Source: Norana najaformis (taxonomy: Eukaryota; Annelida; Clitellata; Crassiclitellata; Hormogastridae). Taken from it: DNA of 64,000 nt. Both the position numbers and the translations under genes were made by a program. Every line of letters begins with the position of its first letter. Within the stretch, counting starts at the first letter, position 1. The notes below the pieces were generated by a model. It made no database searches. It was not told where the DNA came from and saw only the letters and a list, made by a program, of their open reading frames with translations. Location of the stretch: NCBI GenBank assembly GCA_964023275.1, contig OZ029919.1:248001-312000 (forward strand). The letters run 5' to 3'. This document shows positions 993 to 25,681 of the stretch, piece after piece.

Positions 993-1146
993 CTGGCATG
1001 TAAGGGGCTTTGCACTGGCATTGACTGACGAGAGCCTTCGTTTTGCACTCGAGCTGACATTTGGCTGTTGAATATTCATCCGTCGAATTAAAGAACTCGT
1101 AAGGCTTTGAACTGCATTGACCCCACGGAGCCTCAAGGCTCACACT
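993..1146 (-). CDS. Channel gene exon 32: Cys-rich segment ahead of TM2 (last exon in window)
   Basis: The exon encodes [11 protein letters not shown], then [20 protein letters not shown] and CKAPYMP, then a GTATGT donor in phase 1. This is the DEG/ENaC Cys-rich stretch (P-W-G-x-C, Y-S-x-x-x-C-x-x-x-C, C-x-C-x-x-x-x-M-P). The remaining Cys-rich part, TM2 with the selectivity filter, and the C-terminus were not found between 1 and 992 on the minus strand and are expected beyond the left edge. Confidence 0.9.
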
Positions 1147-4100
1147 CTGCACCAGAGGGGTTAAACAACGTTCAGCCATGAAATGAATTGAAAACATTAA
1201 CACGTATTTGTTTTAATTTTAAAAAACATTAAAAACGTTAAGATATCCGACCGACTTGTCCAATGAAGGCAAATTGGCCTTTGACGGCGTCTTGCCGCTA
1301 GGAATCACGGTCACCCATAACACAGTATTAACGTAGTTAGTTAAGTCCATATTCCTGAAATTACTAAGAAATGTTCAAGTAACGCCTGAATTCAGAAACA
1401 GCTGTGGATTAATCAAATCAAAATTCGCCGATAATTATGTGGAGGAAATATCGACACTGATATTTATAGGAGTCACTGGTCACTAATGACAAAGAAAATT
1501 GTGACCAGACTTCTCCGATGCATAATGATTGTCATAACGGCGATCTGAAAGTAGTTGGATTAGATTGTATTATTATAGTAGATTTGAGTATAATGTTCGT
1601 CGGATTCTACAGAGAACGACCGATCTATTGCCGGTTCACTGTTAACATACGTCCACCAGCTTCTCACTGCAATGCCACTTAATTCAAAAACATGACAGTT
1701 AAGCAAAAAATTGACTCGAAAAATCCCAGAAGCCGAAGAATAAATACGTTCCCTAACATAAAAAGCTCTTAAGAATACGAATCTTCATTAAATAAGAAAA
1801 GATAATAAAACGTTTTTATGTTAATGGGCTGCACAAGAAAACAGATCAGTTACTGCACTTATTAACCCTAGAACGCACACAGCTCCCACCACCGAAGGAC
1901 GAACGGTTATTCAGAAGGAAACACAGACAAATTGTTTTCTAACCGATTGCACTTAGCATTGATTATAAATTGTGATGACTTAGAAGCTGACAGTTGATTG
2001 ATAAATAAATGACAAAATTAATGATGATCGTCAGAGACGTTGCTATTGGCGATAATGAAAACAAGAGGCTGATATGGTTAAATGATGAATAAAGTCATTC
2101 GCAAATAAATGCACTTCAAAATATATTCACTCCTCAATAAAATCACTCCAAAAACAAATTCACTCTTAAATTAATTCACTCCTGAAGTATCTATTCGAAT
2201 GATTTCTATAGCGCCGTAATGGTAATGCCCAAGTCATTAGTTGATGGTCGCTTCAAGTGAAATCGCAATCAAAATCATAATCCGTTGGAGAAGCCAGGTC
2301 GAATTCCAATGGGTCAGAGAAATAGAATGCCAGGCTACGGTTGGTAAGCCAGATGAAAGAGCCATGTCTTAAGTTTAGAGCTGAATGACATCAAAGAGCT
2401 GGCAAAACGAACTGAACTGAGCAGAGAATTGCAAAGCTTTGGACGAGCCACCGAGAAGGCCAAGAGCCCAACAGCGTTCGGGTATAGAGCACAGCAAGTC
2501 ACAGTGTCTACTGATCGAGTGTAATATCTATTAGTATGAGTGGTGAGCACGAAACGTAAATAGGTCGGCTGACCAAATTATTTGCTAAATTGCACATATC
2601 AACAGCTCAAGATGAAATGCACCATACTTCCTTCTTTGAAAACGCTAAACTGCAGACTAATATCTAAACGTTTATGAATTTAAATTAAAGTAAAAACGTG
2701 TCTAAAGCCTATTTAATCAGCAGAATTTAAAAACCAAAACACATAGCCCAAATTCCGCTAAAATTCAACACACTTTTAAACTGACTCAAACAAGAATTGT
2801 GATCTAATCTAATCTAATCCCGTAATCCAAAACGAAATCTCAAATGACACAATGATGATGAAGACGACGACGATGATGATGAACTAACCCCGGAATAGTC
2901 GAGAGGAGCCATGGTCTGGAATCCTGGTGGAACCATGAATCCAGCGTCCATCACCTGAGTGACGTCATTCTGGCTTCGAAAGTGCATCTGAAAGCAACGC
3001 ACTGGGGCAGGTAACCAATGGGACGGATTCAGCAACAGCTAATACTTCTAATTTCATAGAGAAGGCTTTCAATTCGACGATGGACGGCGCATATGATTCT
3101 TGCATTGATATGGAAACAACTGGAGGAAGAAAAGAAGCCGGAAGCAAAAACAGTAGTGAATATTATTATGACGAAGATGGCTGTTAGAACAATGATAACA
3201 ATTACAACAACAATGATGATGATGACAATGATGACGATGGTGACGATGATGGCTATGACGATGACGATGATGATGAATATGACGATGATGATGATGATGA
3301 TGACGATGAGAGGAATGACAAGGACGACGTTTACCTTGATTCCTCGGTTGTATCCGTATCCTGGAACATCTTCGGGCTCTTGGACATTTAGCACGAGCTG
3401 AAGCCCATTTTTCTCTCCTAAAAACAGAACCAATTTCCTGGGCGTTAATTGCGAGATCAACGTCGTTGTCTGAAAAGTCATCTTTGAAAGCAAACAATGA
3501 AGCGACAGAATCGCCTATCGAAGAGCGAGCAGAATGTCGAACAAACTACTTGTAACATCTGCGCAGCAGTTCTATTGTGACGAGTTGGATATTGCCGAAA
3601 CTGCTTGAGTCTTCGAACGCTTCTTGAATGCAATGACTCTAGTGACCTTGACGGCATAAAGCGCTATCTAGTGTTTTCAAAATTTTTGCAGCTGAAATTT
3701 CTAATTTAAAACGGCAATACCGAAGCGTAGAAGTTGCAAGACTCATTGAAAGTAACCCTAACCTAAGTTTTTCGCAACATAGCGTCATACCAACTTCTTT
3801 ATTAACTCCTGTTCTAATGTTTTCCATCCTCATTGGTCATCTGGCTAATCTCTTCTTTTTCAAGAAGACCATTTTCCTCTGCTTTTGAAGCTAATCTAAT
3901 CTAATGGACGGTGGGCATTATATGTGAATGACCACGGATTGTTCTGTCGGGCTGCAGTGTATGTATACCTGTGTTGTCTGCCGACAGAATGCGCTCTTTG
4001 TTTCCATTGAAGGTGTAGCAGGCGCCCATGTCCGTGTACTCTATTTCAATTTCGTCGTCATAACAGTCTCTGCCACTCCACGAGCAGCTGATGATGCAAG

Positions 4101-7100
4101 ACGAGAGACACAAATTATTATCAGCCAAACTCAGTTCTCAGCTGCTTCAGTTCATTCGAAAAACAAGCATCACTCTTCCCATTCAACAGACCTTTCATCT
4201 GGGTACTCAAGTGCAAACAATATGTAGATTTATATCTACATTATACATATGCATAGACTCAAATAGAATGCTGACTATGGAGTTAAAGGCTCATTAAAAG
4301 CCTAGTTATTAATATTAATAAAAATTAGGCTGAACTTTATTGTTTTATTGTTTCTGTTACAGACAGCAATCGTAATTCCGAGATTTCTACAGCGCCCAAC
4401 GAAAGCCTCGCCGCGGGGACCAGCTTATTCACAGGCGCTCAGTCAAAACAAAATCGATAGGCAAAGGGGTTCGGTTCCAGGTCAAGATCCAAAAGTCAGA
4501 CGGAGAGACAGCGTGGGTAAGGTAAGGCAAGAAGGCGAGGTAAGGTAGAGTAAGGCATGGCAAGGTAAGGTAAGGTAAGGTTAGGTAAGTTAAGGCAAGG
4601 TACGTTAAGATAAGAATAGTAACTTCTAAATTCATTCAACAACCTGTGTGAAAATGGACGTTTTAATGCGCGGTCGTGGGCAGCTGATGGATCTTCGGGT
4701 TGAATCGCAGGTAGGGTTAAAGCAGGCAGTAAATAGAATAACCTTCTGTCAGGTGTTGGATTCTGTTTTGACCAATTTAACCGTCCACGAAGGACTTTAT
4801 TTCAATCAGCAAAGCTGCTATATGCGCTATATTAGTGAAGGAATGCCGTAGGCTAGATAGATGCATGTAGATGGATCTACAGGTCAGCAAAGATGGCCGC
4901 CTTACTGGAGTATGAGATGCTCTTTAGTGTGTCCAACCATCTTCCTCAAGTCTCCCATGTTATACTCTACACATAACATAAACCGAAAATTAGTTAACGT
5001 AAGTACCATCATAATTTAGTATCATCATCATCGTCGTCGTCATCATCATCATCATCATCATCACCATTGTCTTCCTTCCAGTCATCATCATCATATCATC
5101 GTCGTCGTCGTCGACGTTGTCGTCGTTATCGTCATCATCACCATCATTGCTATCTCTATGCAAACATTGATCTTCGAGGGTTAATCGATAAGCAATCAAC
5201 ACCAGCAGGCCACAAACGCAACTAACATCAAATAACAAAAATAGACGTTCTAATGGGAGAAATTAACACCAATTAACACCAGTACCAACGCAACTTAAAC
5301 TAATTAACACCAGTACCAACGCGAATAGCATCAGATGTCACCAGTAGCAATAAGCACAGAGAACAGCTTAGCAAATGGGACGATTTACTGAGAACTAACG
5401 ATCGTTTTCTTTGATGACGAGGTCCATGTAGGATGTTCTTGGCAGCCGTTGTCCAGTGTAGGGCACTCGGGCTTCTTCAGACTGACAGCCGCTGCCAGCT
5501 CGAATACCTGCTAAGCAAAAGGTTTCCCTGTCGTACGCGATTCTTCAGTCATAGGCAGTTAACTACTCGCATATAAGCTGAGTCTTCGGACGAGGGACAA
5601 CTCCAACTCACCGACGCTTAAAAACGACCTCATTAGCTGAGGTTGTACTTGAATGGTTGTCTTGAAGGTGCGCTATATAAATGTCCCGAAAGAATAATAA
5701 ATGCTTTTGCTGTTCTTCAGTTTGATGAGCTATGGATCGGAGTCAAATGTTCCTTAGACAAGTTCTCAAAGCCATAACAACTGTTATTGTAGACAGCTTT
5801 TAATTCAACATTCTTAACACTTAACGTCACTGGCTGTCCCAGTCAGGTCGATATACTTGACTGTAGGCCATTCGCCGAGGGTGTTGCAGGGTAGGTTGTT
5901 TCAGACGGATGGTATTGCAACTGCAGAACTCCACCGCTCACTCTAGTCCCTCAGATGTAGAGGTCGCATTAAGTTGCAACATATACAGATATATATGTGA
6001 ATCTTCGAACTTTCTCAGGGGCACAAAAAGCCACTTCTTCACGGGCGCTATATATCAAGTTAAATCCGCAAAGACCAGATTGTTTGGCCAGTTTCGGTGC
6101 CAGGCCTGAATCCGGAGGCGAGGATAGGGCCAGGGAGACAACATGGTGCTACGGTGAAACTGTTGGTGGTGGAGTATTGATGGTGTAGGAGCGGAAACAG
6201 GAAGGAATAGCATCGTCAATACGAGCACTTGAATGCTCGTACTGACAAGCAAGAAAGGAGATGAGCGACCTAACTTTCTTTACTGTAGATCAGCACTTAA
6301 CATCATTTAAAGTAGTCTAATGTCATGTCAAGCAATGTAAGATTCTCGTGACGATCAATGACGATAACCGTAGGTCAGAGTTCAAGTGCGGAAAGAAGAG
6401 GTCATGATCACCTGCTTCTTGACATCTGAAGTCGGCCGAAGTCATAATGTTCCTGACAGTGACTGATTCGAGGTCCACCGTGAATCCGATTTTCTCGGCC
6501 ACAAAAGCCACCTGTTGCATTTGGCCATCGGCGTCATTCAGTGGAACAGTCGCAGAGTTCCAGTCGGATGCGTTCGTCTGGAACTCGTATTGCAGCTCCT
6601 TCAACTTCTGAGTGGACGAGGAGTTGGAGATGTTGGTTGTCTGAATGCTAAGAACGATCTTCGGATGACTCAGTCGATACTGAAACTGGAGACAGGCTGT
6701 CCCGTTGAACTGCATCGGTGGAGCCAGCAACACAGCCATGTCAATGCTCGGTCCAAACACAGCTTCCATGTAATAGTCTGCAAGACATCAAATCAAATTC
6801 AAACAACTTTCAGACATTTTCATTAGCCAACAGACCTCATACGATTTATGTAGCGCATTTTGTGGAACTATATTCACATGCGGTACACAACCTTGTATGC
6901 ACAACAGGCCTTAGAGGAGGAGTGGCCGTGCAGCTCAAGAATCTGTTGCTTAAACTGCAGATAGAGTTAAATCAGATAAACAAAGGACAGCCTTTTCCAG
7001 GGCTTTGATTCTGCTTTGACCAGTTACAGTCCACAAATGACTTTATTTTGTTCAGCAAAGACTGTTATTTCCACCAGACCTTAGTTAGCAGAGATTTAAC

Positions 7101-10100
7101 CTTCTTCAGTGTGGCTCAGACTTTAATAAACGTCGTCTAACTGCTACTTTATGACAGAACAGAGATTTAACTTCCAATCTATTCTAATGACTTCTCGAGC
7201 ACTGTTATCTTGAGGCGGCAATCGGTAGCGCATTATGATACGGCGCTATAGATTCAAGATTAGATTAGCACCTTGGCAAAACGGCAAGAGGCAGAACTCT
7301 TTGACGACGTCTGGATCAGTGGTGCAGCACCAGGGCGCCGCCTCGTAGATTCCGTCAAAGGATGGATTGCGACAGAAGTTGCTGATGTGGCCCAGTTGAA
7401 CATCGTTGTCATCATCAGCGCTGACGAGCAGGGAGTCGGCGAAGTAGCTGGCGTCGTTGTACGGATGTAAATGAGGCGTATCCGATTTCCACGGTTGACA
7501 GACTCGGCCAGAGATCGTCTGGCTCTGCGATCCGACATAATCGCGGCCATCGGAAGTCGACAGGCACTCGCGTGTACTGCTCAAGTCTGCGCATAGATAC
7601 ACAACATAGAGCCATCATTCGGACTCATTCGTAAGTTCTTATCGGGATCGCTGATATACAGTTCAAAAACCAACTCTTAGAAGATTTAGGAACCATCTTT
7701 TTAATGAGACGGTGGTGTCATTACCGGCGGTTGTGGTGGCTGTGTTTATGAAAGCTGCCTGTGTAGATGTAAGAACCCAGCGAGACTGCTGCTCGGATGC
7801 ATCAGTGTAACCACAGCTGTTCATATCTCGAAAATCACACGAAATCAACGACTCCCCAACGCGAAGATCTAAGCACATCAAAATTCTGTTATTATCCGAT
7901 AGAAGTAGATGACATCACATTAGATCTTTAGGGTTAGCACCACTGAATTCAGAAGATAGAATTGGTTGGAAACTGTTTCAAAATAGCTTTCATTGTTCAG
8001 AATATAAAATACCGTTAGTTTCTTCTTGCTAGAGTCATTCAAAGTCTGTCACTTTGCGCTGTTGGATTGCAAGTCCGTCCGAATTAAGGTTCATAGCAGC
8101 ACATGATTTCAATCTATCGATCTGCAGCAACGATGACCATGTGGCTGACAAATCTTACCACTTCTTGGGCAGGCATTGGATTCAATGCTGATGTTGTGAA
8201 TCGTAGTATTTTCCGTTGCATCGATGGCAATCTGAAAGCTCGAAGTGTTGGCCTGCAGTCGAATTCTGATCAGTGCCAGGATTCTCTTTAGCCTTTGCGT
8301 GGATCCACTCGAAAAGATCGTATGATTCAGGTTGACCCCATCAGTCGATCGCTGGAACAACTGCACTTTAAAACTGGAAGCCAGTTCAGCGTTCACAGTC
8401 ATGCAGACCTCGTCTGCAGTTCCTCCAACTGCAACGTCGTAGACGTCCGACACGAACTGAGAGATCGGTGCTTTGGTCGTCTGGGTTTCGTCCGGCGAAA
8501 TCCGTTCAATGAGAAGCGAATAATCTGGCATCAGAACTAGTTCCATTAACCTTATCAATTAATATGTCAAACTACTGCAGAATGGGATGCAACCGGTTCC
8601 AATAATCAAAGTATGAGAACTGTGGGATTACGGGTAGTTAGAACTGAAATGAGGAAGAGGGGTCTTTTGCAAGATAGAAGGACGTTCTTCAACGTGGCGC
8701 TTATCCGTGGATCTGCGGATGGTATTTGCCAGATTTTAACTCAAAGTGTTGCTCAGAGTATGGCTCCGGTGTCTCCAATCAGTTTCCCTGACGTGCATGT
8801 ATATATAAACCATCTCTCTTCTCGCTCATTAGACATTACTTGTGTGATTGGCCTAACTGCGTGCCTCGAAATCGCCACTTGTTACTAGTTCTCTTCCTAC
8901 TCACTGAAGCTAAATCCTACACCCTCCGGCCACAGTCCTGTTTTGTACCCCTCCACTCATCGACCAGGGTGATAGATTTTGGAACCCAGGCCAGGACTGC
9001 TATGGCACAGTGTAGTTATTTCAGGTGGCGAAACCATCTTCAATTGTAAACTCGTCTAGCCAAGTGTAAAATAGGCATCCAAAGTATTTCCTCGGGACCC
9101 TGACTCTACTAAGTAGTGTTTTCTGAAAAAAAGATGCTATACAAACGTCACCAAAAGGGCAAGGTGTCCTCATACTGAATTCAGAAGCATGCGCAGTCCT
9201 GTCAGCAGTACGAATACCTTGAGTAGTATTCGGGCTGATTTCGTACGTGATGTTGAAGATGCAGGGAACGACAGCGGTTGGTATAGAGATGTGAAGGACG
9301 CCGTTATCCGTCGAGTATTCAACTCCGTCTGCTAATGTCATCCAGATAATCGATGACTTTACGAAGACTCCAGAAGACCAAGACCAGATCTAGACACAGG
9401 AACATAGAGAACCGCGTGCTATTCTCAGTGGCGGGTCCAGGATGCTTGCGTGGGGGCAAGGGCGTTTCCAGAGGGGCGCCACATTCTGACAGTCCACCAT
9501 GCACGGGTCGAGTCTGAGGGGCGCCGGCATATAACCAAGAAGTGCGGCGCGGGTTCGGACGAACCGCTTCCTCCCCGCCTCTATAGCTAAATCCGCCATT
9601 GGCGATTCTCAGCCCCGACATGCGAATGGTCCAGTCTTAAATCCACACGAACTTTTCTAAGTCTAATCTAATCTGAAACCCTCTACAGCGGCGCAATCGT
9701 AACGCACAACACGTCAAATGACCAATGAACTATCTGATTAGCGTCTCTTGAATCGGGGCATATAAATTTATAATTGTAATTGCAATCAATGGGCTTCGAA
9801 GTAAAACCGCTTTCCAAAACCACAATCCATTGGACTAATGGAGCCTGTCGCGACCCACAAGGCTCCGCAAGACAGGCTACGAATGATTGTGCAAAACACT
9901 CTCTGCAGATCTTTCGCAGAAAAAGAACATCTGCTACAATTACGCAGAACTGTTTTTAAGTCTTCAACGGCCGAGTATAAGCGACTGAAAGAAGCCAACC
10001 GTGACATTGACGCTGCCGACTTGCGAAGTGGTGCAGCCGGCCGTATCTACAGTAATGGCTGCTCGAAGACTGGCGTTGAACGCTGTCAGGCCGATCACGT

Positions 10101-11152: not shown

Positions 11153-11201
<49 letters not shown>

Positions 11202-12985: not shown

Positions 12986-13022
<37 letters not shown>

Positions 13023-13823: not shown

Positions 13824-13855
<32 letters not shown>

Positions 13856-16800: not shown

Positions 16801-19745
16801 TGAGCATTTCGAGGCTGCAAGCGTAGGAATCGGCTTCAAGGTCAAACACGGGAAAGGTCAAGGTGACAACCGATCCATCTGGTGCGTTGATGTGATTGAT
16901 ACATCTGTTGTTTGCTTTGAATTCACAGGGATCCGGAGACAGGATCGAGTCCTGGCTGCTACGATACGTCTGTCCACAGGGACCACTACTCTTCAAGTCA
17001 ACTGCACAAAGACAATCACACAACTGCCACAATACCCTTACCAGCATGCCCATGTGTAACCTACATTCCCATATGGGTTCCGTCAAATATTAAGGGGCAT
17101 GAAGTCGTGTATTATAGACTATGTACCCATGATTTAATATACAATCATATACATATAAATAATCGTAGACTGTGTAGTATGCTTTAGATAGTCTTATTTG
17201 ACCAATTGTGTTTAACTGCTTCTTACGATAACGATGCTAGTAAAGTTTCTAGATTATTCTCTCATATGAGCAGAATCTATGTTGATGAGCCTTGTTGCCT
17301 TTGTTCTGCTCGCTGTTGGTTGCTACTATCGCTGCGAGAAGTCTATTTAAAAGTAAAGGTAGAGACTCCTTAGAAGGTCGTATCGAAGTTGAAGGATCAT
17401 TTGGCTGAGGTGCAAACACGACCGCAGCAATTCAACTTCAAGGCACTTTTCTTATCCTATCAACTGTAATTTCTTACTCATGAAATTTTCGAACCGCGTC
17501 AAGACGTAGGGCTTAGAGGCACCAGGTGTCCCTGTAGTCTACGCATGTTCACTCATCTATTTAATTACGGGGCTTAGTGGTGCTTCCCTTCACAGTATCT
17601 GCCAGTGTTGTATTAAAACATCAAGCAACCATGTAGTCCTTCACTCGCAATTGCACAGCGCCATCGATTGATTCCAAGTAATTGGATAGTGGCGCTTAAG
17701 GAATTATAATAATAAAAAGTATGCATGGCACTATGGAAGTCTTAAGGTAAGACTAGAGTGCGGACCCCAGTGACCTACCGCACTTAGCGTTCGGCCTATA
17801 CGACAACTCGATCTTCGATGAAGTCGAAACAAGACTGTATCCACAGCTGTTCCTCGCAAAAGAACAGTTGACGGATGACATCATGCCACCTACAACGCAC
17901 ATACGCCCACGTGCACGCACTGGCTGACTTTTTATGTATGTACGTAAAGACCTGGTCATTTGTATAGCGTCTTTTAAGGGCCTCACAAGGAAGCTGAACA
18001 GCCTTACATTGAGGCTTTACGTATATAAGGAGTAAAAGTCAGCTTGATTCGGCAACTAAAAAATTTCGGCTTGAAGAAGACACCAGTGTGGCTAGAAAAC
18101 TGAAAGAACTCAAGTGTCTAGTGTCAAAGCAAATTCTCGGCGACCTGCAACAAACAATTTTTCCAAATTTATTTTTTTAAAGGCCGCCACAATGAAGTCA
18201 GGCTATTGTTCACACTGACTGTGCTCTACTGATAATCAGACAACTAATGGCCATGATCAGCCTAGATGCATTAGTGTCTGGTGTTTCCGGACATGACTGA
18301 AAGAAAGAGAGACGTACCTTTCCTGGTCACGGCGGGTGGTAGCATCGCACATTCTTCGTCTGTAACCTGGACGTCGTCGATGGCAATGTCCACCACAAAC
18401 GGTCGTCCAACCGTCGCTACGAACCCGAGGAAGTATTTTCCGGTCGGTAGACAGACGTTGATCCGCTGCCAATCGAACCCAGTCGACTGCGTCGCCTCTG
18501 TTAACACGCGGACCTGCGCTCCAAGCTGCGAGTACGCCACCAGTTGCAATCGGGAGGTTGATGAAGATGCGTCGCACAATCGCATTGAGTAGGAGAAGTG
18601 AAGAACGGTCGGCCGAGACAGAGAAAGAAGCGGAGATGTCAGCGTCACTTTGTCACCGATTTCTCCAAAGCCAGAGCTGGCCAACATGTAATAGCCTACG
18701 AACGCGTCATGTTTCGAATAACATGATCTGATCATAAATCACATTAATAGCAATTTGTATGTGAGCCTACGGAGCTGACACGTTAGAGGCTACAAACAGC
18801 CAGCAGCACGTGTACAAAAGGAACGGCTTTAATATCTCGGATCCTCAGAATAAACAGCAAAGATTACACAAGCGATTTACACGCGTGCTAGGTTCAGTGC
18901 TCGCATAGGTACTCGGTTTATGTACTTTTCTCAGGTGTCTGTATCGATAATTAGCGGCTGATTCTTTAAGTTTAAACAATATGAGTGGTACGCAAAAGAC
19001 GCTAAATAAATTCACCAATGCTATAAAAAGATAGGGACGAGAAGCCCGGATTGACGGAGGCCTAAGAGAGCATAAGTATATGTAAGTAGGCAGCAGAGAC
19101 CTTGAAGAGATCCGCTGCTGTCGACGACTGGTCCCTGAGTTACTCCGCTCGTGTCGCTTCCCCGTCGCCTCATCCACGACAGAGAACCAACGATCGACGT
19201 CTTGTAGCCACAGCTGAAGGCATCCTCGAAGTTACAAGACACGCTCACCTTGTGCTCTACAAGAACAATGCACGATCACGAAGGTAGGTGAAAGAGAGGC
19301 AGACAGAAATCTAAACACAAACAAACTAGAGACATTTATAGATGCACTTAAAACTCATTTATTTAGACTTTATTACGATTAACTTAGTTTATGTTACGCG
19401 CTTTCGTGCAAGACTAGTTTTGTTTAAGCGCGCTATAAATGTTAGCTTACTTACTTACTTACTTAGAGACAGGGTGTCAATGCTTTGCCTTTCAATGTCA
19501 TCTCTCGCCCCGCATCTTCCCAATATCCTCTTTCTCTCCTCTTTTCTCTTTTCACGATCTCCCATGCGCTAAATTTTTCTCCATGCTCTTATCCCCTACC
19601 TACCTCCATCCATCCTTCTGTATGTCCGAATGGAGCGACGAGTGTAATTACACAGGTTTGATTGACGCATATTTAGCTCTTTCCATACTCACATTCAACA
19701 TCTTCATTCACGATCCAGTTCGGCTATCTTTCTTTTCATGAGAGG

Positions 19746-19805
<60 letters not shown>

Positions 19806-22800
19806 AAAGAGAAAAGAGAGAAAGAGAGAGACAGAAAGACAGAGCGACAGAGAGAGAGAGAGAGAAATAAAGAGAGAGACGATGACTGAAGTTTCTATGA
19901 ATACCACATGATGCTTCGTCGCTTCCGTCGTAACACTCCTTCTGTCCGTTGCAGATGAGGTTGGCCTTCGGAAGACACATTCCATCGCCGCATCGAAACT
20001 CAGTTCCCAGGCGACAGACTGAAAACAGAGTCCGAAGAACACAGACCGGTCTCTTACCAACAACTAGACGACGTATCACCGCTTATAATACATTGCTATG
20101 AGTCAGTATTGGTAAATCAGGCCTCGTTTTTCGTCATTCTAGCCAACCCTGGCGTTTTCATACTTCTAAAGTCCGAAAGGTTATCAAAAGGCGCTATATG
20201 AATATTCAGATGCATACAAACATTTTGCAGAGCGGCCTACATTCTACAATATTGTAGATTAAGTAGATCATAGTTTTAATGGAAAAACTGTAGGAAGAAG
20301 TTGTCTGTTGCCTTTCATTCTTGTCTAGCAGTTTATTCCAGATTTCACAGAGACACCAGGTTGTTTCATGCCAAGACCAAGATTTTCAGCTAAGTATAAA
20401 TCTACATTAAGCGTGATTCATAGATAATAATGTTTTAGGTCTGTAGCTTTTACTCGTTTAAGACTCGAAGGGCCTTTAATTTTAATCACAATCACTTGAT
20501 TCTAAGTTAAATACTTGTCAATCATATGCTAACCACAGTACTTTATGTCACAGGGAGCCAGTCGGATTTCTGAGACGGAAGAAGCGACGGTGGTGGCAAT
20601 CAGACAGGAAGGCCGAGTCCAGGCCGAGGGTCCAAGGATGTTCCTGCAGTAGTTTCTGCTGTTTTTGGTGTTAACATCGGGCAGCTGAGGCCCATAGTCG
20701 CTCCCTACATCCGTCCACATCAGACAAGACTCTCCCGAAGCAGATCGACTCATCGTCCCAAAGTAACCGGTGCCCATCGGATTCACTCGACATTCGAGCT
20801 CCACGTCTAAAAACCAACAGGTGAGCAACTGAGGCGAGAAACATTGATATTTCGTCCATTCACTACGAGTTGTTGCCACACAAAGAAGTAGTCGCGCAGA
20901 AGTCCATTTTAGTGGATCAAACTAATCGACAGACTTTCATCTAGGGCTGGCAAAATACCTTAAATGGCGTGGCGTCCATTCAAACGGGCAACGATGGTGA
21001 AGGACCTCACCCGAAAAAATTATGAAAAATGAGCATGGTCGCTATAGAAAAACATGTCCATTTACATTTATAGGAAGTCTATATAGGATAAAACGTATAG
21101 ACTGCCTATAGTAACGGCATCTGGTAGGCTTCTTGTGACTGAATATTTCAATAACAACTTTTAAGAATCTATGTTAAAGGATGTTTGAGTTTTTAATAGC
21201 AACAGTTTTATCAGCTTGCAACAGAAAAAAGAACGCACAGTCAAAGGAGTTGCGTATCCTTGACCCTTTCTTTTGCATCTGCCCTTTTCTTCATTTCCTC
21301 TTCTCATCGTCTGCTAAATTGTCCTTAACTTCCCTTAAAAAACTAAAGCTCTTTTTCTGGCAGGTTCTACAAACACAAACAACTCTTGCGTTCGTCTCAC
21401 CAAATTTCTCGCATCGTTGTACGATGATGTCGTCGACGGCCAATCCAGTGTAGCTGACGTCTCCCCTCCTCCCCTCAATGACAATCTGATAGATTCCACT
21501 GGGCAGCTCAGTAAACATGCGATTCCATCCGGCCACTGGCTGTCCGATGGTCCTTGTCACCGTCTCTTCCAGCTTCTCTTCCGAGACGACGATGATTGAC
21601 AGGACCGTTTCATCGACGGACGCATCCATCCAGTAGAAGAGTTCGGCGCACTGACCGGTTGTGTCCATGTAAGGCGACTGAAGGCGGGCAAAGTAACCGA
21701 GTCGCTGGTCGCTCGTTAACATCATTTGAAAATGACCGCTAGCTGCAACGACACACAGACAAGTCTTGGCATCATCAAGCAACGCCTCTGTATTAATCTG
21801 GGTACAAACCTAATAGATCTATTGAGTTTCCATTTATTATTCATGTAACAATAGCTTTTCAAAGCCAATAACTTCCTAAGACTTACCTTTGCTTATATTC
21901 AACATAACCAAAAGCTTCACAATTGTTAAAAAGTCGGCTACTCGCCAAATGAGCTCTTCTGAATTGCATTCCAAAGGTTCACAGTCATCTCGACCCACCG
22001 AGGTTCAGAGTGTTATCGAAGGGTATGGAGGGGATGACATCAGCCGTCGTCATAGACCAGATCTCGTTGGCATATGAGGCGTTTACCAGTGGACAGAAAC
22101 CGTCCTCAAAGTTGCAGAAAAATGCCTCTGAATCTGTTATTGAAAACAAGAAGAGAAATCGGTTTCATTTCGTAATCGAACAAAAGACAACGTATACATG
22201 TATACATAACTATGAATGTATACAAATTTTGATATAGCGCCTTTTAATACCTCTCTCTCAAAAACATTGCCTATGCTACTTGAATCGGTGTTCAATGCGT
22301 TAAGAACAAAAAGTTCAAAGCGAAAAGTGCTCAGATAGCTACAAAAAATTAACCAATGTCTCTCAAACCGATCAAAGCAATTGTGACGTAGGTAAGTTAT
22401 GGTTTGGTCCTTCCTTGAAATGAATGATCCTGTTTGAAGAGAATTCGGTGTTTCACAGCGTGAAGAAGAAGCTCAAAGAAATTTCAACAAAATTATCTTA
22501 AGAAGCTCAGTTTAAATGTGGAACTATGCTTTCTTCTAACTATATGAGATTTTTCCGACAGGCGAATCTTTTACCTAGGCATCGTTTCCTTCTGTAGAAT
22601 TCAACTCTGCTGCCGTTATATGAGCAGTTGAAAGCAGCGGCAGCAGCCAAGTCGGAGTCAGTGGAGAGCAGCAGCCATTCGCCCGTGTAGGCGCTGAGGA
22701 TGCAAGTGCGATCGGTTCGGTTGAAGAGGAAGGAACTGCATTCCGTGTCGTAGATGTCTGAACACAGACTCCGACAGACAGAGCGTGTCGCTTCTCCAAC

Positions 22801-25681
22801 GAGAATGTTGCTCCAAGAAAATCGATTCGGAATTATGCAGATCCCAGAGTAGAAAACGTATTCGTCGCAAGAATCTGGAAAGCCATAAGATATACTAACC
22901 ATGCTCTGGTAACTGTGTGATGTCTTAACGGAACTGAAATTATTAGGTCAACAAGATCGCATATTATGGCTGTAAATTGAAGCCACAGTTACATTAATGA
23001 ATTCAAAAACTTAAATAATTTGCATGCTTTGCATCTAAAATATGAACAAGCAGTCTCTCCATGCGCATCACCGTCTCTCTGTATCTCTGTATCTACCTGT
23101 ATCTACCTCAGACACATAGGCAGACAGACGTTACGGTTGACTGCACAACCGAATTAGCTAAATGTTACAAATTGGCATAATAATTTAAGGCGTCACTTAC
23201 AAGCGATGCGATCTTTATTGGCGGAATAATCGTTCACAAGTAAATCATAGAGCCCGTGCTTCTGCAGTGCACTTGATCTGACAAAACAACAAAATCTCGC
23301 TCGTAATCGATTTCAAATTATTCAAACTCTCGTTTCCAAGACAATTGTTGCCACCGAACAGATCGTTCTCGACAAAAAGATCAAATGCTGTTCAACACTC
23401 GAAACTGTGAAGAATTGTTGCACGCTGAACATTCTGTTAGGAAAATATGGAAACTTCTTGAAAATGGAAACTATGGGTGAAGGGGGTTTTATGTCGGGTC
23501 TTCAGTCAACTATAAACTCATGAAGATAACTATACTTTGGACAGGATATCGCTGATAAGGAACCAGCGTAAAAAGGAGTCGAAAGTTCATCGCCCAGTTA
23601 GTTCTTCTCAGTCTTCTTTCTTCTCCGGTTCGTAAGTCCTTTTCATTCTCAACTTAAGACTTTCGTTATCAGGTAGCTTATCTACAAATGGCTGTTTCTC
23701 TGTCTCAGTGAACTGACTTTCTGGGCACCAACCTGATTACTGCTTGGATTCAGTGTGCAGCTCTTGATGCCTTGTGCATTAGACCCAGGTGTTATAGAAA
23801 TGGTTAATTAACAAGTATTAAAAATCGAAAGATGATGGCTCAAATTGACCAAAGAAAAATGCATCAAAGAGGTGTTCCTCTCATGTTGACAGAAGTTCTT
23901 TTTGAACCCTAAAAGCACCAGTTGGAAGAAGTCTTTCCTCTATATAGGTCTACATTAATAATTTTTCAATGCATCTTATTTTGGACAAAGAAAAATGTTT
24001 TACCGGAACTGATTCTGGTTACAGATCGTGACGGCTGGAAAAGGAATGGAATCGTTGTAGAGGATGTCCAAGTTGACAGATTTCGGATGAGAGAAGAGCA
24101 ACTGTAGCTTCGTGGTGATGATGTAGATAAATAAAGAAACGGAGATCAAGATCAGACAAATCCAGACAAACCTACAAGCATACAAACATTATCGCCTTCA
24201 ATTTGCAACATACAGCTGCTAAATTCTCAAGTGTAATTGCCATAGGTTTGAATCCGCACTCAAGGCGAGTTGATAGTTCTGCAAATGGTGCAGTTTGTTA
24301 TTAAATACGTTCATTACTTGAACCGTGCGGACAGTCAGTGAAGCATGACGCTCACCAAAGTTTGTGTGCAAACGTTCGTTTAGTGTTTATTTAAGTGTAT
24401 AATGTAAAGTGTGGGTGTTTATCTCACGCTAGTAAAGATTACTTACTTATTTACTTAGTTAAGAGTTTGAAATTTATGTCGGATAGGACAACATAACTGT
24501 TCAAAGAAGGAGCAGTGGTCAGCTGTTTTGCCGGGGCATTTTAAATCTAGTCTAAACAATTTTTTAGATTCATTTTCCACAGCAAAACCCCTCGGAAAAG
24601 CGACTTTCAAGTGTCTTTCAGTTACTAGACCTTAAGCTAGCTTAAATGGGTCAAATCGACTGAAAGACAAAGTATAAACCTCACATTTAAGAAAGGCGGA
24701 AGTAAGGGTGCAGCCGCAAGAGTAGCAAGTTACACGTAGATCTACGCGGAGTACGAAAGGGGCTCACAGTAGTGCAAAAGTCTCAAGTGTAACTATGAAA
24801 TTCGTAAATATCTTTTGCTTCGTACCAGAGCCAGTGACCACAGGATCGACTCTGCTGATTGATCCAAGGTCGTGATCATAGGAAACAGATCGAAACAAAA
24901 CCACAGCAAATGGAAGTGGCTCGAAAAGACTTACTTCCGGCAGAGATATTTCGTTGGTTCGGCGAGAAATCTGAGTCCATGGACCGTTGTGCTGATGGCG
25001 AAATCCGACAAAAGACAGATCCACGGACGACCTACCGGTTTTGTTTTGACATCCGAATCTGAAGAGAAATAACTACATGAAAATGTTATATTCTATATCT
25101 TTTCTCATATGATGCATAAACTTAGTTTTACATTTATCGAGCAGCTGATTCGCTCCAAGCTAACAGCTCAAACAAATTGTCTTTTGCATTCGTCTATTTA
25201 GAGAGCTTGTGTTGCTGTGGACGAGAGACGAGTGATGTGATCTAAAGTTATGCGCAGTATTATTATTAACAGAAAATGTTAAAGCTCGTTCATGTAACTA
25301 AATGCTACGCAAATGTGCTCAAGAGTTGATCAGGCATAGTATTCTAGAGCCACTACTATGGTACATGTAACACGACACGTCGGCTGCATATCCACAACTC
25401 AAATGTGCATGTCAAGTTGGACTCTAAAATGACATTATTCATTAAAGTTATAATAACTATTAATTAGTAATATTATCGTGCCGGTGTCTAAAGCGCAAGG
25501 CATCAACCGATGGCGCACCAAACCAAGCCGTAATCAGATTCACTTTAAACGAGATTCTATTTGAGAGTTAACTTCTAAGACACACTCGACAGGCGCTTGA
25601 TCTTGTACCGTTCTGCAGTTTCTTGAGTCTTTTCTCATCCGCCATGAACTCCTCCTCACGGAAAGGCATTCCGTCGCTCAT
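993..25681 (-). CDS. Giant modular DEG/ENaC-family channel with PAN, MAM, kringle, LDLa and CUB modules (3' end off window)
   Basis: Thirty-two exons join in phase with GT-AG sites: 25609-25681, 24935-25058, 24004-24171, 23201-23277, 22575-22874, 21999-22127, 21401-21742, 20534-20806, 19905-20018, 19101-19256, 18318-18695, 17779-17889, 16799-17001, 15978-16158, 14775-15146, 13959-14129, 13364-13753, 12421-12528, 11255-11617, 10536-10655, 10000-10172, 9218-9389, 8159-8536, 7725-7868, 7272-7586, 6412-6777, 5400-5507, 4906-4966, 3969-4087, 3335-3417, 2889-2987, 993-1146. The sum is 6,325 nt (2,108 codons plus one base). The family forms trimeric, amiloride-sensitive sodium channels with two membrane spans and a Cys-rich ectodomain. 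Seen: N-terminal HG motif, TM1, FPAVTIC, the G-x-CYTFN motif and the Cys-rich segment. About 1,750 residues of adhesion and binding modules sit between TM1 and the finger region. TM2 is not in the window. Whether the channel conducts is unknown. The exon 21 donor (GTTGGC) is the weakest call. Confidence 0.85.
1147..2888 (-). other. Large intron of the channel gene with a dispersed repeat
   Basis: There is no coding sequence on either strand that I can support. Positions 2,200-2,560 resemble 51,270-51,600, and both contain a TTGATGGTCGC or TTGATAGTCGC motif. They look like degraded copies of one dispersed element. A GATTA-type tail (read as CTAAT on plus) ends at about 2,820. Confidence 0.5.
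2889..5507 (-). CDS. Channel gene exons 27-31: resumed DEG/ENaC finger and palm region
   Basis: Exon 27 (5400-5507) reads [17 protein letters not shown]. Exon 28 (4906-4966) reads [19 protein letters not shown] and joins exon 29 (3969-4087), HCSWSGRDC ... [10 protein letters not shown]. Exon 30 (3335-3417) is [17 protein letters not shown] ending in GIK. Exon 31 (2889-2987) is [20 protein letters not shown] followed by PGFQT. This order matches ASIC-type channels: N-M-R-x-F, C-x-x-x-G-x-x-C, G-x-CYTFN, N-G-L-x-x-x-L, and G-x-x-V-x-PG. Phases are 1, 2, 1, 0, 0 at the successive exon ends. Confidence 0.9.
3190..3310. repeat. GAT/GAC trinucleotide microsatellite
   Basis: An imperfect GAT/GAC-rich tract lies within the intron between exons 30 and 31. 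It creates long spurious open frames (Met-rich on plus, Ile/Val- or His-rich on minus). Confidence 0.9.
4500..4620. repeat. GGTAA-type pentanucleotide repeat
   Basis: Runs of GTAAG and GTTAG-like pentamers (for example GGTAAGGTAAGGTAAGG) lie in the intron between exons 28 and 29. A shorter related run occurs at about 10,670-10,690. Confidence 0.8.
4680..4850. repeat. Dispersed repeat, copy A (matches 6,930-7,090)
   Basis: This stretch and 6,930-7,090 share an ordered series of words: GGGTTAAA/GAGTTAAA, GGATTCTG/TGATTCTG followed by a TTTTGACCA-like word, a TCCACxAA word, GACTTTATTT and CAGCAAAG. They are two diverged copies of one repeat in introns of the channel gene. The family is not recognised. 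Confidence 0.6.
5020..5160. repeat. ATC/GTC trinucleotide microsatellite
   Basis: An imperfect ATC/GTC array lies in the intron between exons 27 and 28. Just downstream, 5,255-5,340 contains a roughly 45-bp tandem duplication with the words AATTAACACCAGTACCAACG. Confidence 0.85.
6412..6777 (-). CDS. Channel gene exon 26: second half of a MAM domain (MAM 7b)
   Basis: The exon starts [15 protein letters not shown] and continues [20 protein letters not shown], then [14 protein letters not shown], then [10 protein letters not shown]. It ends FRCQEAG before a GTGATC donor (phase 1). The A-C-L-x-F-x-Y-R strand is a strong MAM signature. It pairs most simply with exon 24. It is the last inserted module before the channel ectodomain resumes. 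Confidence 0.83.
6930..7090. repeat. Dispersed repeat, copy B (matches 4,680-4,850)
   Basis: Second copy of the repeat described for 4,680-4,850, located between exons 25 and 26. It keeps the GACTTTATTTTGTTCAGCAAAG block in the same orientation. Confidence 0.6.
7205..7268 (+). mobile_element. Short SINE-like 3' end with GATTA tail
   Basis: The words TAGCGCATTATGATACGGCG, CTATAGA and AGATTAGATTAG occur here. The reverse complement of 9,665-9,710 gives the matching series GCGTTACGATTGCGCCGCTG, TAGAGGG, CAGATTAGATTAG. Several other intronic sites (2,806-2,820; 3,889-3,903; 15,240-15,260; 16,185-16,240) keep only the GATTA-type tail. The parent family is unknown. Confidence 0.5.
7272..7586 (-). 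CDS. Channel gene exon 25: kringle domain 2, between two MAM half-exons
   Basis: This symmetric phase-1 exon of 315 nt encodes [37 protein letters not shown] and EFCLLPFC. The kringle order is complete, with an additional cysteine after the P-W-C and an acidic insertion (SADDDNDVQ) before the F-C-R-N. It is longer than kringle 1. It sits exactly in the position of the intron that normally splits a MAM domain. Confidence 0.85.
7725..7868 (-). CDS. Channel gene exon 24: first half of a MAM domain (MAM 7a)
   Basis: The exon encodes [20 protein letters not shown], then SRWVLTS, and ends in a Thr-rich tail before a GTAATG donor in phase 1. The C-D-F and C-G-Y motifs are clear. The next exon is a kringle, and the MAM second half follows that kringle at 6412-6777. 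Confidence 0.8.
8159..8536 (-). CDS. Channel gene exon 23: second half of a MAM domain (MAM 6b)
   Basis: A 378-nt phase-1 exon encodes [51 protein letters not shown] and [11 protein letters not shown]. This is the usual sequence of MAM second-half strands with one central and one terminal cysteine. Several N-x-S/T sites suggest glycosylation. The preceding modules are CUB 2 and exon 20, so the arrangement repeats that of exons 12-15. Confidence 0.75.
9218..10172 (-). CDS. Channel gene exons 21-22: degenerate CUB domain 2
   Basis: Exon 21 (10000-10172) encodes [20 protein letters not shown] and then [13 protein letters not shown]. Exon 22 (9218-9389) encodes IWSWSSG, then [11 protein letters not shown] and [10 protein letters not shown]. 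The split point, the W-x-W start of exon 22 and the final N-I-T-Y-x-I strand match CUB 1 (VYTW and NITYKI), which is why both are called CUB. The internal intron is phase 0 as in CUB 1. The donor of exon 21 (GTTGGC) is weak but is the only phase-0 site consistent with the homologous boundary. Several CUB cysteines are missing. Confidence 0.62.
9426..9601. mobile_element. hAT-type MITE with 8-bp target duplication
   Basis: The element begins CAGTGGCGGGTCC and ends with the near reverse complement AAATCCGCCATTG, a terminal pattern common in hAT elements. The flanking 8-mers are GCTATTCT (9418-9425) and GCGATTCT (9602-9609), a target duplication with one mismatch. At 176 bp with no transposase, it is non-autonomous. 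Its left end lies only 36 bp from the acceptor of channel exon 22. Confidence 0.8.
10450..10508. repeat. ACAT/CATA microsatellite
   Basis: An imperfect CATACATACATACATA run begins about 25 bp downstream (on minus) of the exon 20 donor. Confidence 0.85.
10536..10655 (-). CDS. Channel gene exon 20: short Cys-containing exon, possible degenerate MAM first half
   Basis: This 120-nt phase-1 symmetric exon encodes [13 protein letters not shown] and a basic, then glycine-rich tail ending IEGE before a GTGAGT donor. Its position (before a CUB and then a MAM second half) and its two cysteines mirror exon 12. However, the C-D-F-E and C-G-Y signatures are lost, so its identity as MAM is an inference. 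Confidence 0.55.
11155..11220. repeat. ATC trinucleotide microsatellite
   Basis: About 20 near-perfect ATC units lie in the intron after channel exon 19. The array starts about 35 bp beyond the exon 19 donor on the minus strand. Confidence 0.9.
11255..12528 (-). CDS. Channel gene exons 18-19: MAM domain 5 (divergent)
   Basis: Exon 18 (12421-12528) carries [20 protein letters not shown] and ends at a GTGAGC donor. Exon 19 (11255-11617) carries [28 protein letters not shown] and [18 protein letters not shown]. It ends with a hydrophobic strand and EEVDC. The usual I-D-D-I is replaced by SFDRI, so this is a divergent copy. The frame across the junction is exact. Confidence 0.75.
12980..13032. 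repeat. TG dinucleotide microsatellite
   Basis: A TG/CA run with few interruptions lies in the intron between exons 17 and 18. It is preceded by a CT-rich tract at 12,915-12,945. Confidence 0.9.
13219..13316. repeat. Inverted repeat (hairpin) with about 37-bp arms
   Basis: The left arm CGATGAGAGCTCTGTGGCAA continues GAGAAAGCTACATTTTA. The right arm is its reverse complement with two differences. The loop of about 20 bp is AT-rich (ATACATGTATATATACATAT). It lies in the intron about 50 bp downstream of channel exon 17. Confidence 0.85.
13364..14129 (-). CDS. Channel gene exons 16-17: MAM domain 4 with Ser/Thr-rich insert
   Basis: Exon 16 (13959-14129) encodes [20 protein letters not shown], then FNWAPAS, then a run rich in Ser and Thr that could be O-glycosylated. 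Exon 17 (13364-13753) encodes [38 protein letters not shown] and ends [10 protein letters not shown]. The loop between the strands is longer and more Ala-rich than in MAM 1 and 2. Both joins are phase 1. Confidence 0.8.
13830..13878. repeat. TG and TA dinucleotide microsatellites
   Basis: A TG run followed by two TA runs lies in the intron between exons 16 and 17. Confidence 0.85.
14640..14775 (-). repeat. Short tandem repeats reiterating a splice-donor sequence
   Basis: Read on minus, the exon 15 donor GTAAGAACCCTTA is followed by imperfect tandem units of about 25-30 bp (GTAAGACC, ATAAGAACCCTTA, GTAAGAACCCTTA). At least three donor-like words therefore follow the real donor. Confidence 0.75.
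14775..15146 (-). CDS. Channel gene exon 15: second half of a MAM domain (MAM 3b)
   Basis: The exon encodes a MAM C-terminal half: [10 protein letters not shown], a C-L-x-V-K-F strand, [20 protein letters not shown] and a closing D-G-P-C. It has phase-1 ends. Its first-half partner is most simply exon 12, with the CUB domain lying between. The donor GTAAGAAC sits at the edge of a short tandem array that repeats the donor sequence (14,640-14,775). Confidence 0.78.
15305..15440. repeat. TATC/TGTC tetranucleotide microsatellite
   Basis: An imperfect CTAT/CTGT run is followed by a CT-rich tract. It lies in the intron between exons 14 and 15. Confidence 0.85.
15640..15845. repeat. Degenerate tandem repeat with GTCAGTGCATTAGAT unit
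   Basis: About eight imperfect units contain GTCAGTGCATTAGATATxGG-like words at spacings of about 20-40 bp. The array is intronic in the channel gene. Confidence 0.75.
15978..17001 (-). CDS. Channel gene exons 13-14: CUB domain 1
   Basis: Exon 13 (16799-17001) reads [39 protein letters not shown] and ACSLEMLK. Exon 14 (15978-16158) continues [22 protein letters not shown] and [10 protein letters not shown]. The four cysteines and the final G-Y-N-I-x-Y strand are typical CUB features. The intron inside the domain is phase 0 and the outer boundaries are phase 1. CUB modules commonly mediate protein interaction and calcium-dependent ligand binding. Confidence 0.85.
17779..17889 (-). CDS. Channel gene exon 12: first half of a MAM domain (MAM 3a)
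   Basis: The exon encodes [15 protein letters not shown] and ends AKC, the pattern of a MAM first-half exon (C-x-F ... C-G-Y). It is flanked by a GTAG acceptor and a GTAGGT donor in phase 1. The next exons downstream are a CUB domain, not a MAM second half. A MAM second half appears only at 14775-15146. No open second-half exon was seen between 17,002 and 17,778, where all minus frames carry frequent stops. Confidence 0.75.
18318..19256 (-). CDS. Channel gene exons 10-11: MAM domain 2
   Basis: Exon 10 (19101-19256) opens the domain with [13 protein letters not shown] and a W-x-R-R-x-G-S stretch. Exon 11 (18318-18695) starts [16 protein letters not shown] and continues LTSPLLSL and LHFSYSMRL. 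It ends [20 protein letters not shown], then [10 protein letters not shown] and a cysteine. The exons are in phase with 1-1 boundaries, and donor and acceptor sequences are strong. Confidence 0.87.
19320..19466 (+). mobile_element. LINE 3' end (CR1/L2-like), with TTAC tail
   Basis: The plus strand keeps the end of a non-LTR retrotransposon ORF2: [17 protein letters not shown] then stop. This F-K-x-x-L-K-T-x-L-F pattern is typical of CR1/L2-type C-termini. A short 3' UTR ends GCGCGCTATAAATG and a tail of TTAC units follows. It is antisense within an intron of the channel gene. Confidence 0.7.
19740..19872. repeat. GA dinucleotide microsatellite
   Basis: About 130 bp of GA repeats with a few AAGAGA interruptions lie close to the donor side of channel exon 9. 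They explain the Leu/Ser open frames on the minus strand. Confidence 0.95.
19905..20018 (-). CDS. Channel gene exon 9: LDL-receptor class A module
   Basis: This 114-nt symmetric phase-1 exon encodes a complete LDLa repeat: [15 protein letters not shown], then [18 protein letters not shown]. The six cysteines and the DGSDE acidic cluster that coordinates calcium are visible. Its downstream intron begins GTATTC and runs into a long GA microsatellite at 19,740-19,872. Confidence 0.93.
20534..20806 (-). CDS. Channel gene exon 8: kringle domain 1
   Basis: A single symmetric phase-1 exon of 273 nt encodes one kringle. Its features are an opening ECRV, then [20 protein letters not shown], then RNYCRN, then a Cys near RPSC, and a closing pair APCDIKYC. 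All six kringle cysteines are present in the expected order. Kringles bind lysine-bearing or other protein ligands in plasminogen-type proteases and receptors. I know of none described in a DEG/ENaC channel. Confidence 0.85.
21401..22127 (-). CDS. Channel gene exons 6-7: MAM domain 1
   Basis: Exon 6 (21999-22127) carries the MAM opening [10 protein letters not shown]. Exon 7 (21401-21742) carries ASGHFQM, RLQSPYM, a central CAELFYWM and a WNRM segment. It ends with the typical [20 protein letters not shown] followed by a cysteine. Both exon ends are phase 1. MAM domains are extracellular adhesion/dimerisation modules found in meprins, neuropilins and receptor phosphatases. The donor after exon 6 is GTGGGT and gives a perfect frame across the junction. 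This is the best-conserved MAM copy in the gene. Confidence 0.88.
22575..22874 (-). CDS. Channel gene exon 5: PAN/Apple-like domain
   Basis: A single 300-nt exon (phase 1 in, phase 1 out) encodes about 100 residues with the PAN/Apple cysteine pattern. Two early cysteines are followed by SVCRSLCS, then ECSSFLF, then [11 protein letters not shown], and a final KRC. PAN domains usually bind proteins or carbohydrates. The assignment rests on the C-x3-C, C-S-F-x-F and C-x-L spacing. This is the first inserted module, residues about 147-247. Confidence 0.75.
23201..23277 (-). CDS. Channel gene exon 4: last ectodomain segment before the inserted modules
   Basis: This 77-nt exon reads [20 protein letters not shown] and on to a GTAAGT donor in phase 1. 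It aligns by eye with the ASIC stretch in which a leucine-rich segment and N-x-x-Y follow TM1. The next conserved ASIC segment (F-N-M-R-x-F near the finger) does not appear until exon 28, so the modular insertion begins here. Confidence 0.85.
23580..23800 (+). mobile_element. LINE 3' end fragment, same family as 44,620-44,915
   Basis: It contains CCTTTTCATTCTCAACTTAA, CCTGATTxCxGCTTGG-like and TTGATGCCTTGTGCA blocks in the same order as the better-preserved LINE end at 44,620-44,915. Only the last codons (FHSQLKT) and 3' UTR remain. It lies antisense in the intron between channel exons 3 and 4. Confidence 0.6.
24004..24171 (-). CDS. Channel gene exon 3: TM1 and FPAVTIC motif
   Basis: The exon encodes a hydrophobic span starting [17 protein letters not shown] (about residues 68-92). 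This is followed by the family-typical extracellular segment ending [12 protein letters not shown], which closely matches the post-TM1 motif of ASIC, ENaC and degenerin subunits. The donor is GTAAAA in phase 2. This exon is the clearest proof that the gene is a DEG/ENaC channel. Confidence 0.93.
24935..25058 (-). CDS. Channel gene exon 2: N-terminal HG gating motif
   Basis: The exon translates through [14 protein letters not shown], which matches the conserved pre-TM1 segment of DEG/ENaC channels, including the His-Gly pair known to affect gating. It begins after a CAG acceptor in phase 1 and ends at GTAAGT in phase 2. It joins cleanly to the TM1 exon, giving ...CRKFVWICL. Confidence 0.88.
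25440..25530 (-). mobile_element. LINE 3' UTR fragment
   Basis: Its reverse complement reads GCGCCATCGGTTGATGCCTT, then ACACCGGCAC and ATAATATTAC. This is the same order as the LINE 3' UTR at 44,820-44,890. It sits in the intron between channel exons 1 and 2. Confidence 0.6.
25609..25681 (-). CDS. Channel gene exon 1: start codon and cytoplasmic N-terminus
   Basis: The reading frame opens with [12 protein letters not shown] and continues through a short acidic/basic stretch to a GTACAAG donor in phase 1. The next exon's acceptor restores the frame exactly. This start is chosen because it joins in phase with the exon carrying the DEG/ENaC HG motif. A second in-frame ATG lies four codons downstream and a third lies twelve codons downstream. 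The 5' UTR and promoter were not identified. Confidence 0.7.

Follow-up and report, generated by a model that had tools for sequence, protein, structure and literature searches.

DEG/ENaC channels are described as having one compact ectodomain plan in common. Ion channels are also acted upon by CUB/LDLa auxiliary subunits such as Neto and LEV-10, and PAN and kringle modules co-occur in plasminogen-type proteins. For ENaC, passages of PMC6197857 place the GRIP domain between finger helices 1 and 2 and describe an intersubunit collar formed by the finger and knuckle of neighboring subunits. Here we describe a gene of the annelid Norana najaformis, gene A, whose predicted product is a DEG/ENaC subunit with two inserts that together add about 2,300 residues, largely adhesion or binding modules, to the ectodomain, so that inserts and channel stand at roughly 5:1 by size.

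Gene structure and channel portion

The window, a stretch of 64,000 nucleotides (C7:248001-312000, where C7 is contig OZ029919.1 and window position w is C7:248000+w), comes from a genome of 608 Mb in 17 contigs. The flanks C7:128001-248000 and C7:312001-342000 were added, and the minus strand was the main object of analysis. Simple position weights served to score the splice sites, and candidates were limited to AG acceptors and GT or GC donors. The resulting model of gene A has 37 exons on the minus strand, from 25681 to window -3703 (C7:244297), in one open frame of 2,786 residues; 36 of its 36 introns are GT-AG and the phases are consistent throughout (Table 1). The exons at the channel-module junctions (4, 5, 26 and 27) were the best or sole splice candidates with no phase imposed. 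A phase was required before the splice-site choice for exons 9, 10, 16 and 18; exons 8, 11, 16 and 21 were chosen over or beside equal or better-scoring alternatives for their similarity to a second copy of the gene, copy B; and exons 1, 13 and 37 were placed by eye. The model agrees with all of the boundaries given in the preliminary description (23201, 22874, 6412, 5507, 993 and the ATG at 25681), but its count of 32 exons rose to 37 once the left flank was added, and the TM2 that it had expected to the left of the window was found there, at -3540 to -3703. When the region was compared with itself, collinear relatives of most coding exons from 25 kb to the window edge turned up further left. 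Chance open frames were ruled out by paralog conservation, phases and dN/dS, since two tandem paralogs match exon by exon and dispersed paralogs add to these.

Table 1. Predicted exons and domains of gene A (window positions unless prefixed with C7).
Feature	Position	Strand	Content and basis
exon 1	25609..25681	-	start ATG, cytosolic N-terminus, phase-1 end; placed by eye
exon 2	24935..25058	-	HG motif (STTVHGL) ahead of TM1; aligns to ASIC5
exon 3	24004..24171	-	TM1 and the segment following it; hydropathy, Pfam, ASIC5 alignment
exon 4	23201..23277	-	first finger helix region; phase-1 end is the entry of insert 1
exon 5	22575..22874	-	PAN module; PAN_1 24.4 bits when scanned alone (cut-off 21.4)
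exons 6-7	21401..22133	-	MAM unit 1, phase-1 intron between halves; 67.7 bits joined
exon 8	20534..20806	-	kringle 1, weak; 26.6 bits, below cut-off 34.3
exon 9	19905..20018	-	LDLa; 32.5 bits
exons 10-11	18318..19256	-	MAM unit 2; 74.8 bits
exons 12-15	14775..17889	-	CUB (13-14) flanked by MAM-like halves 12 and 15
exons 13-14	17001-16799 and 16158-15978	-	CUB; 52.7 bits
exons 16-19	11255..14129	-	two MAM-like units; by exon pattern and collinearity
exons 20-23	8159..10640	-	possible degenerate MAM halves (20, 23) around 21-22, a pair assigned to no module; collinear in B and C
exons 24-26	6412..7868	-	MAM unit with nested kringle (exon 25); order same on C14 and C15
exon 25	7586-7272	-	kringle; 52.3 bits
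exons 27-29	3969..5507	-	finger end, CSWSGRDC and CYTFN segments; insert 1 exit at 5507
exons 30-33	484..3417	-	palm, beta-ball, Cys-rich thumb
exon 34	C7:246130-247619	-	insert 2; left of window
exon 35	C7:245448-245707	-	insert 2; left of window
exon 36	C7:244957-245048	-	left of window
exon 37	C7:244297-244460 (window -3540 to -3703)	-	TM2; about 3.6 kb left of window

Pfam detects the ASC domain (PF00858) on both sides of the modules, scoring 69.4 bits in the part with TM1 and 196.6 bits in that with TM2 (cut-off 23.6); profile positions 1-106 correspond to exons 2-4, and positions 131-384 together with a second stretch to exons 27-37. The two strongest hydrophobic stretches in a hydropathy scan, residues 67-85 and 2740-2758, lie at the ends of the ectodomain, and the next-highest value, which falls within the modules, peaks at 1.54. 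The HG motif before TM1 and an FPxVTxCN motif after it are both present and aligned with ASIC5. Among PDB sequences, the N-terminal piece matches ASIC5 (3.9e-14) and ASIC1 (5e-12), the palm-thumb piece matches ASIC1 (2qts; E 2.2e-32) over palm, beta-ball and thumb, and the TM2 piece matches ASIC2 (E 1.8e-10), with a GGS selectivity filter aligned to the GAS of the latter. Counted by eye, 14 cysteines are common with ASICs, 13 of them aligning to ASIC1 and one, after TM1, to ASIC5; we take these to match the seven disulfides of ASIC1. For the C-terminal piece, the part scanned against them, the ENaC model TIGR00859 (194.8 bits, cut-off 428) and the degenerin model TIGR00867 (131.8 bits, cut-off 598.45) scored below their thresholds. 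Four ordinary single-exon DEG/ENaC proteins encoded in this genome also align with the channel exons of gene A and of its tandem copies; these are the 4 of 8 control loci (L001, L002, L003 and L008) that were read in the right orientation. Nothing in the pore or thumb looks unusual, so this part of the predicted protein is by default read as a cation channel.

At least 97 ASC matches are found genome-wide, including many single-exon DEG/ENaC genes and clusters, for example at C2:42.5-43.4 Mb, C7:27-33 Mb, C11 and C16. Head to head with gene A, a tandem array of apparently four OATP/SLCO genes occupies window 28774-64000 on the plus strand and runs on beyond the window's right edge as far as about 72.8 kb; two pieces of one array gene gave Pfam matches to OATP (111.1 bits) and Kazal_2 (41.4 bits).

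Inserts in the finger and probable knuckle

Insert 1 (exons 5-26) is predicted to comprise about 1,743 residues, close to the 1,750 of the preliminary description, with 67 cysteines and 23 N-glycosylation motifs. Its placement in the finger, which agrees with the entry point proposed earlier, follows from the ASIC1 matches, which break between 2qts positions 86, where the N-terminal match stops, and 127, where the next one starts (about 40 residues between). The order of modules is PAN, MAM, kringle, LDLa, MAM, a CUB between MAM-like halves, two further MAM-like units, the region of exons 20-23, and a MAM with a kringle. Each of the five kinds of module named earlier (PAN, MAM, kringle, LDLa and CUB) has Pfam matches in the assembled protein, where MAM scores 140.2 bits (2 stretches) and 63.2 bits (3 stretches), CUB 47.8 bits and PAN_1 22.8 bits (cut-off 21.4). 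A complete MAM above the 26.4-bit cut-off was obtained for 3 of the 7 joined units in gene A, the other four being below it or unmatched: exons 16 and 17 joined gave 20.5 bits, exons 18 and 19 joined gave no MAM match in Pfam, and exons 20-23 gave no Pfam match to MAM or CUB in copies A or B. The single-sequence fold of the PAN exon was uninformative (mean pLDDT 45). This exon closes with a furin-like RRKR, near window 22580, in A and its two tandem copies, and with RRNR in a relative on contig C15. No protease domain was listed by Pfam in gene A.

The MAM units are each split by a phase-1 intron, at the site where nested modules enter. Exon 24 alone covers MAM profile positions 1-27 (15.9 bits) and exon 26 alone positions 49-142 (31.6 bits); joined, they cover positions 1-142 with 50.5 bits, just 3 bits above the sum of the parts, and the joined halves of copy B score 49.4 bits. 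These profile positions support the view that the kringle of exon 25 is nested within a MAM unit. The CUB of exons 13-14 is probably nested likewise, judging from the exon pattern and a weak, sub-threshold MAM match of exon 15 (16.3 bits in A, 17.4 in B). Phase 1 bounds the finger modules on both sides (for exons 13-14 and 21-22, when each pair is taken together), and therefore a splice from exon 4 to exon 27 would be possible in frame.

Insert 2 (exons 34-35), of about 580 residues, lies after the thumb and ahead of the strand preceding TM2. We place it in what is presumably the knuckle of ASIC anatomy, because the ASIC1 matches break between 2qts positions 352, where the thumb match stops, and 378, where the next one starts (about 25 residues between). 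By a crude propensity scan it appears to be helical, with a linker rich in Ser, Thr and Pro, and a search of PDB sequences with it returned no match up to E 1. Its exons enter in phase 1 and exit in phase 2, and skipping them is not in frame. The earlier account of inserted modules thus held for insert 1, but missed both insert 2, lying after exon 33, and the family of six loci to which the gene belongs.

Tandem and dispersed paralogs

Two further copies, B and C, lie to the left of gene A on the same strand, with exon 2 at window -6344 and -33493, respectively. Exons 2-37 could be placed in order in both, collinear with A exon by exon; a homologue of exon 1 was not found in either. Splice sites in B and C were picked with the phases of A imposed, and exon 7 in both copies, exon 11 in C, exons 6 and 17 in B and exon 34 in C were set by hand; the donor is GC in exon 11 of C and a weak GT in exon 7 of both copies. 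Exon lengths in the three copies are mostly equal or a few codons apart, with exon 16 differing by 17 and exon 34 by more. The TM2 exon is found at C7:244315, C7:216274 and C7:186246 in the A, B and C regions, respectively. Copy B additionally contains, in the region of exon 24, a partial internal duplication (window -21935 to -22600) that involves a MAM half and a fragment of a kringle. The three proteins differ by roughly 15-55%; given this divergence and the presence of relatives on the separate contigs C12, C14 and C15, mis-assembly is unlikely.

A simple count method, by which most synonymous sites are at or near saturation in the A-B and A-C pairs, gave B-C dN/dS values of 0.37 (channel), 0.54 (modules 9-26) and 0.48 (insert 2), with higher values for exon 19 (1.09), exons 20-22 (1.03) and the CUB (0.81). 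Purifying selection thus acts over most of the gene; since some exons have values near 1, some of the module sequence may be under weak constraint or be diversifying. The TM2 exons of B and C are 0.99 identical, synonymous sites being identical as well, which may reflect homogenization. Exons 5 and 7 (window 22575-22874 and 21401-21742) show 96-98% DNA identity between A and B or C, with dS of 0.04-0.09, in contrast to exon 6 and most other exons, which are at or near saturation, and exon 8, which is partly so (dS 0.28-0.53). This identity mostly ends at the exon edges: over intron 30-mers it is 0.17-0.33, though 0.77-0.80 directly before exon 7. Exon-limited gene conversion is its likely cause.

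In all, six loci of the genome can be assigned to the subfamily (A, B, C and one each on C14, C15 and C12), and relatives of both inserts are found at all six, the C12 locus being known from search matches alone. After A, B and C, the best matches to the TM1 exon are on C13, C14:25105889, C15:24111716 and C12:26366788. A search with the PAN exon (E up to 0.1) listed six places and none beyond these loci, namely A, B, C, C14:25111875, C15:24115061 and C12:26368837, the last a weak and partial match (E 0.06); all six sit 0.6-5.8 kb downstream of the TM1 match on the same strand. Kringle matches (98 genome-wide) include two on C14, two on C15 and one at C12:26377183, and MAM matches (48) include four on C12, two on C14 (one with an internal stop) and three on C15. 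With exon 34, 9 of 9 candidates scored lie within the six loci, C12 at E 0.003; exon 32 finds A, B, C and C14 and, weakly, C12 (E 0.07). The DNA of the C14 locus, read for its 3' half, holds relatives of exons 23-26, 29, 30 and 32-37 in order, and that of C15 relatives of exons 4-9, 23-27, 29-31 and 34-36, with an exon 4/5 junction that by eye is of phase 1, as in A. TM2 matches occur at C14:25144086 and C12:26405914; on C15 none was obtained by the TM2 search or in the DNA read to 24,150,000. The subfamily is old enough that members on different contigs have only some 20-65% of residues in common per exon.

Two further places have partial likeness. A DEG/ENaC locus at C13:24325817-24338318, of which a 3-kb piece was read, has a TM1 exon close to the subfamily; the genome-wide MAM, kringle and PAN-exon searches listed no match there, and these searches make it a possible module-free relative. 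On C6, where a TM2-like exon (43%) was found, 60 kb of DNA contained exon 36- and 37-like matches and a few isolated weak ones but no module series, and C6 was left out of the locus count.

Proposed function and comparison with known channels

The evidence strongly supports, at the level of genomic sequence, a single chimeric DEG/ENaC gene rather than two interleaved ones, as the preliminary description had proposed: the frame is open over 37 exons, TM2 is in the expected place, the two tandem copies are collinear, and the same module order recurs on C14 and C15. These loci seem best labeled a DEG/ENaC subfamily of new architecture, marked by a giant composite ectodomain. The literature, as covered by titles and abstract beginnings and by freely accessible papers, yielded no DEG/ENaC channel that carries MAM or kringle modules. 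In the text reached by a term scan, the DEG/ENaC phylogeny papers PMC10507113 and PMC9822975 contain kringle 0 times in either, and word starts in 'mam' number 11 and 3, respectively, those displayed being mammal or mammalian. The earlier remark that no known family member is so built holds for the literature thus covered and for PDB sequences, the sole material compared; the same architecture may exist elsewhere, unannotated or in literature beyond that surveyed.

We favor, as fairly probable, the reading that gene A, one member of a subfamily with six loci, encodes a DEG/ENaC subunit with two large ectodomain inserts, through which binding or pull is passed to the gate. The subunits would assemble as a trimeric cation channel, and binding to or pull on the modules would be transmitted via finger and thumb to the gate, by analogy with the finger-inserted GRIP domain of ENaC, from which proteolysis is thought to reach the gate likewise. 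The tether, supplied by separate matrix proteins in nematode touch channels, would here be built into the channel chain. Because the finger-knuckle collar is where both inserts emerge, gating could respond to binding, pull or cleavage, and we infer that ligand, matrix or protease might each serve as the stimulus. A more specific version, which we put forward tentatively, is that of a cis-tethered DEG/ENaC subfamily, in which each subunit has, spliced into its finger and knuckle, an array for tethering or ligand binding of the kind that separate proteins provide in other animals. Phase-1 modules would have been inserted repeatedly to build it, some nested in others (the kringle, and probably the CUB, in MAM). 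Were this so, three subunits would carry about 7,000 extra residues, through which adhesion, flow or the binding of ligands could act directly on the gate.

The main alternative to a role in gating is one in adhesion or placement of the channel. In its most developed form, which is possible if rather less likely, alternative splicing would yield a plain short channel and a long modular form, the modules serving adhesion or localization. That modules can be skipped in frame, one by one or pairwise, is consistent with this, but insert 2 cannot be so skipped and is listed at the same six loci only. Proteolytic control in the manner of ENaC, with an inhibitory finger insert removed by proteases that kringle and PAN recruit, strikes us as unlikely. 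It would account for the location of insert 1 at the site of the ENaC GRIP domain, for a pairing of PAN and kringle like that in plasminogen-type proteins and for the RRKR motif in A, B and C; the relative on C15 departs from this motif, though, and because the PAN exon has been homogenized among A, B and C, their agreement on it is not independent, nor does Pfam find a protease domain in A. Improbable, in turn, is a loss of conduction that left the channel part as a mere trimeric membrane anchor of an adhesion protein: the inserts are indeed about five times the channel part, but TM2, the GGS filter and the thumb cysteines are conserved, the channel dN/dS between B and C is low, and their TM2 exons are nearly identical, though possibly by homogenization. 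An ordinary DEG/ENaC gene whose intron 4 holds a separate same-strand secreted multi-module gene, for which the phase-symmetrical module exons and the phase-compatible exons 4 and 27 leave room, is very unlikely, because two genes must then have kept their register through joint duplication and dispersal: three tandem copies preserve the arrangement, and C14 and C15 the order, with the C12 search matches in agreement, junction phases fit splicing into the channel in A and (exon 4/5) on C15, and the PAN exon is listed nowhere beyond the six loci at E up to 0.1.

In this subfamily, two inserts that jointly measure about five times the channel lie in subdomains that touch at the ENaC subunit interface, and the finger, host of insert 1, takes part in ENaC gating. 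The inserts show how far the DEG/ENaC scaffold extends, and offer a natural test of whether force, ligands or proteases take hold of the channel at the finger-knuckle collar. Furthermore, the nesting of phase-1 modules is a clear case of domain shuffling within domains.

Among solved structures, ASIC1 (2qts) is the best relative of gene A, whose 14 conserved cysteines have counterparts in ASICs; where gene A has its inserts, ASIC1 has about 40 and 25 residues. This likeness is one of sequence proximity alone, proton gating being the ASIC trait. With ENaC, gene A shares an insert in the same finger part as GRIP and possibly a furin-like motif, but GRIP has a beta-strand core with inhibitory tracts, whereas in gene A there are about 1,743 residues of extracellular modules. 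Neto and LEV-10 are separate auxiliary proteins, and of other channel families. The C. elegans MEC-4/MEC-10 channel resembles gene A as a DEG/ENaC channel relying on extracellular matrix partners; there, MEC-1, MEC-5 and MEC-9 are separate proteins, whereas the modules of gene A lie within the channel chain.
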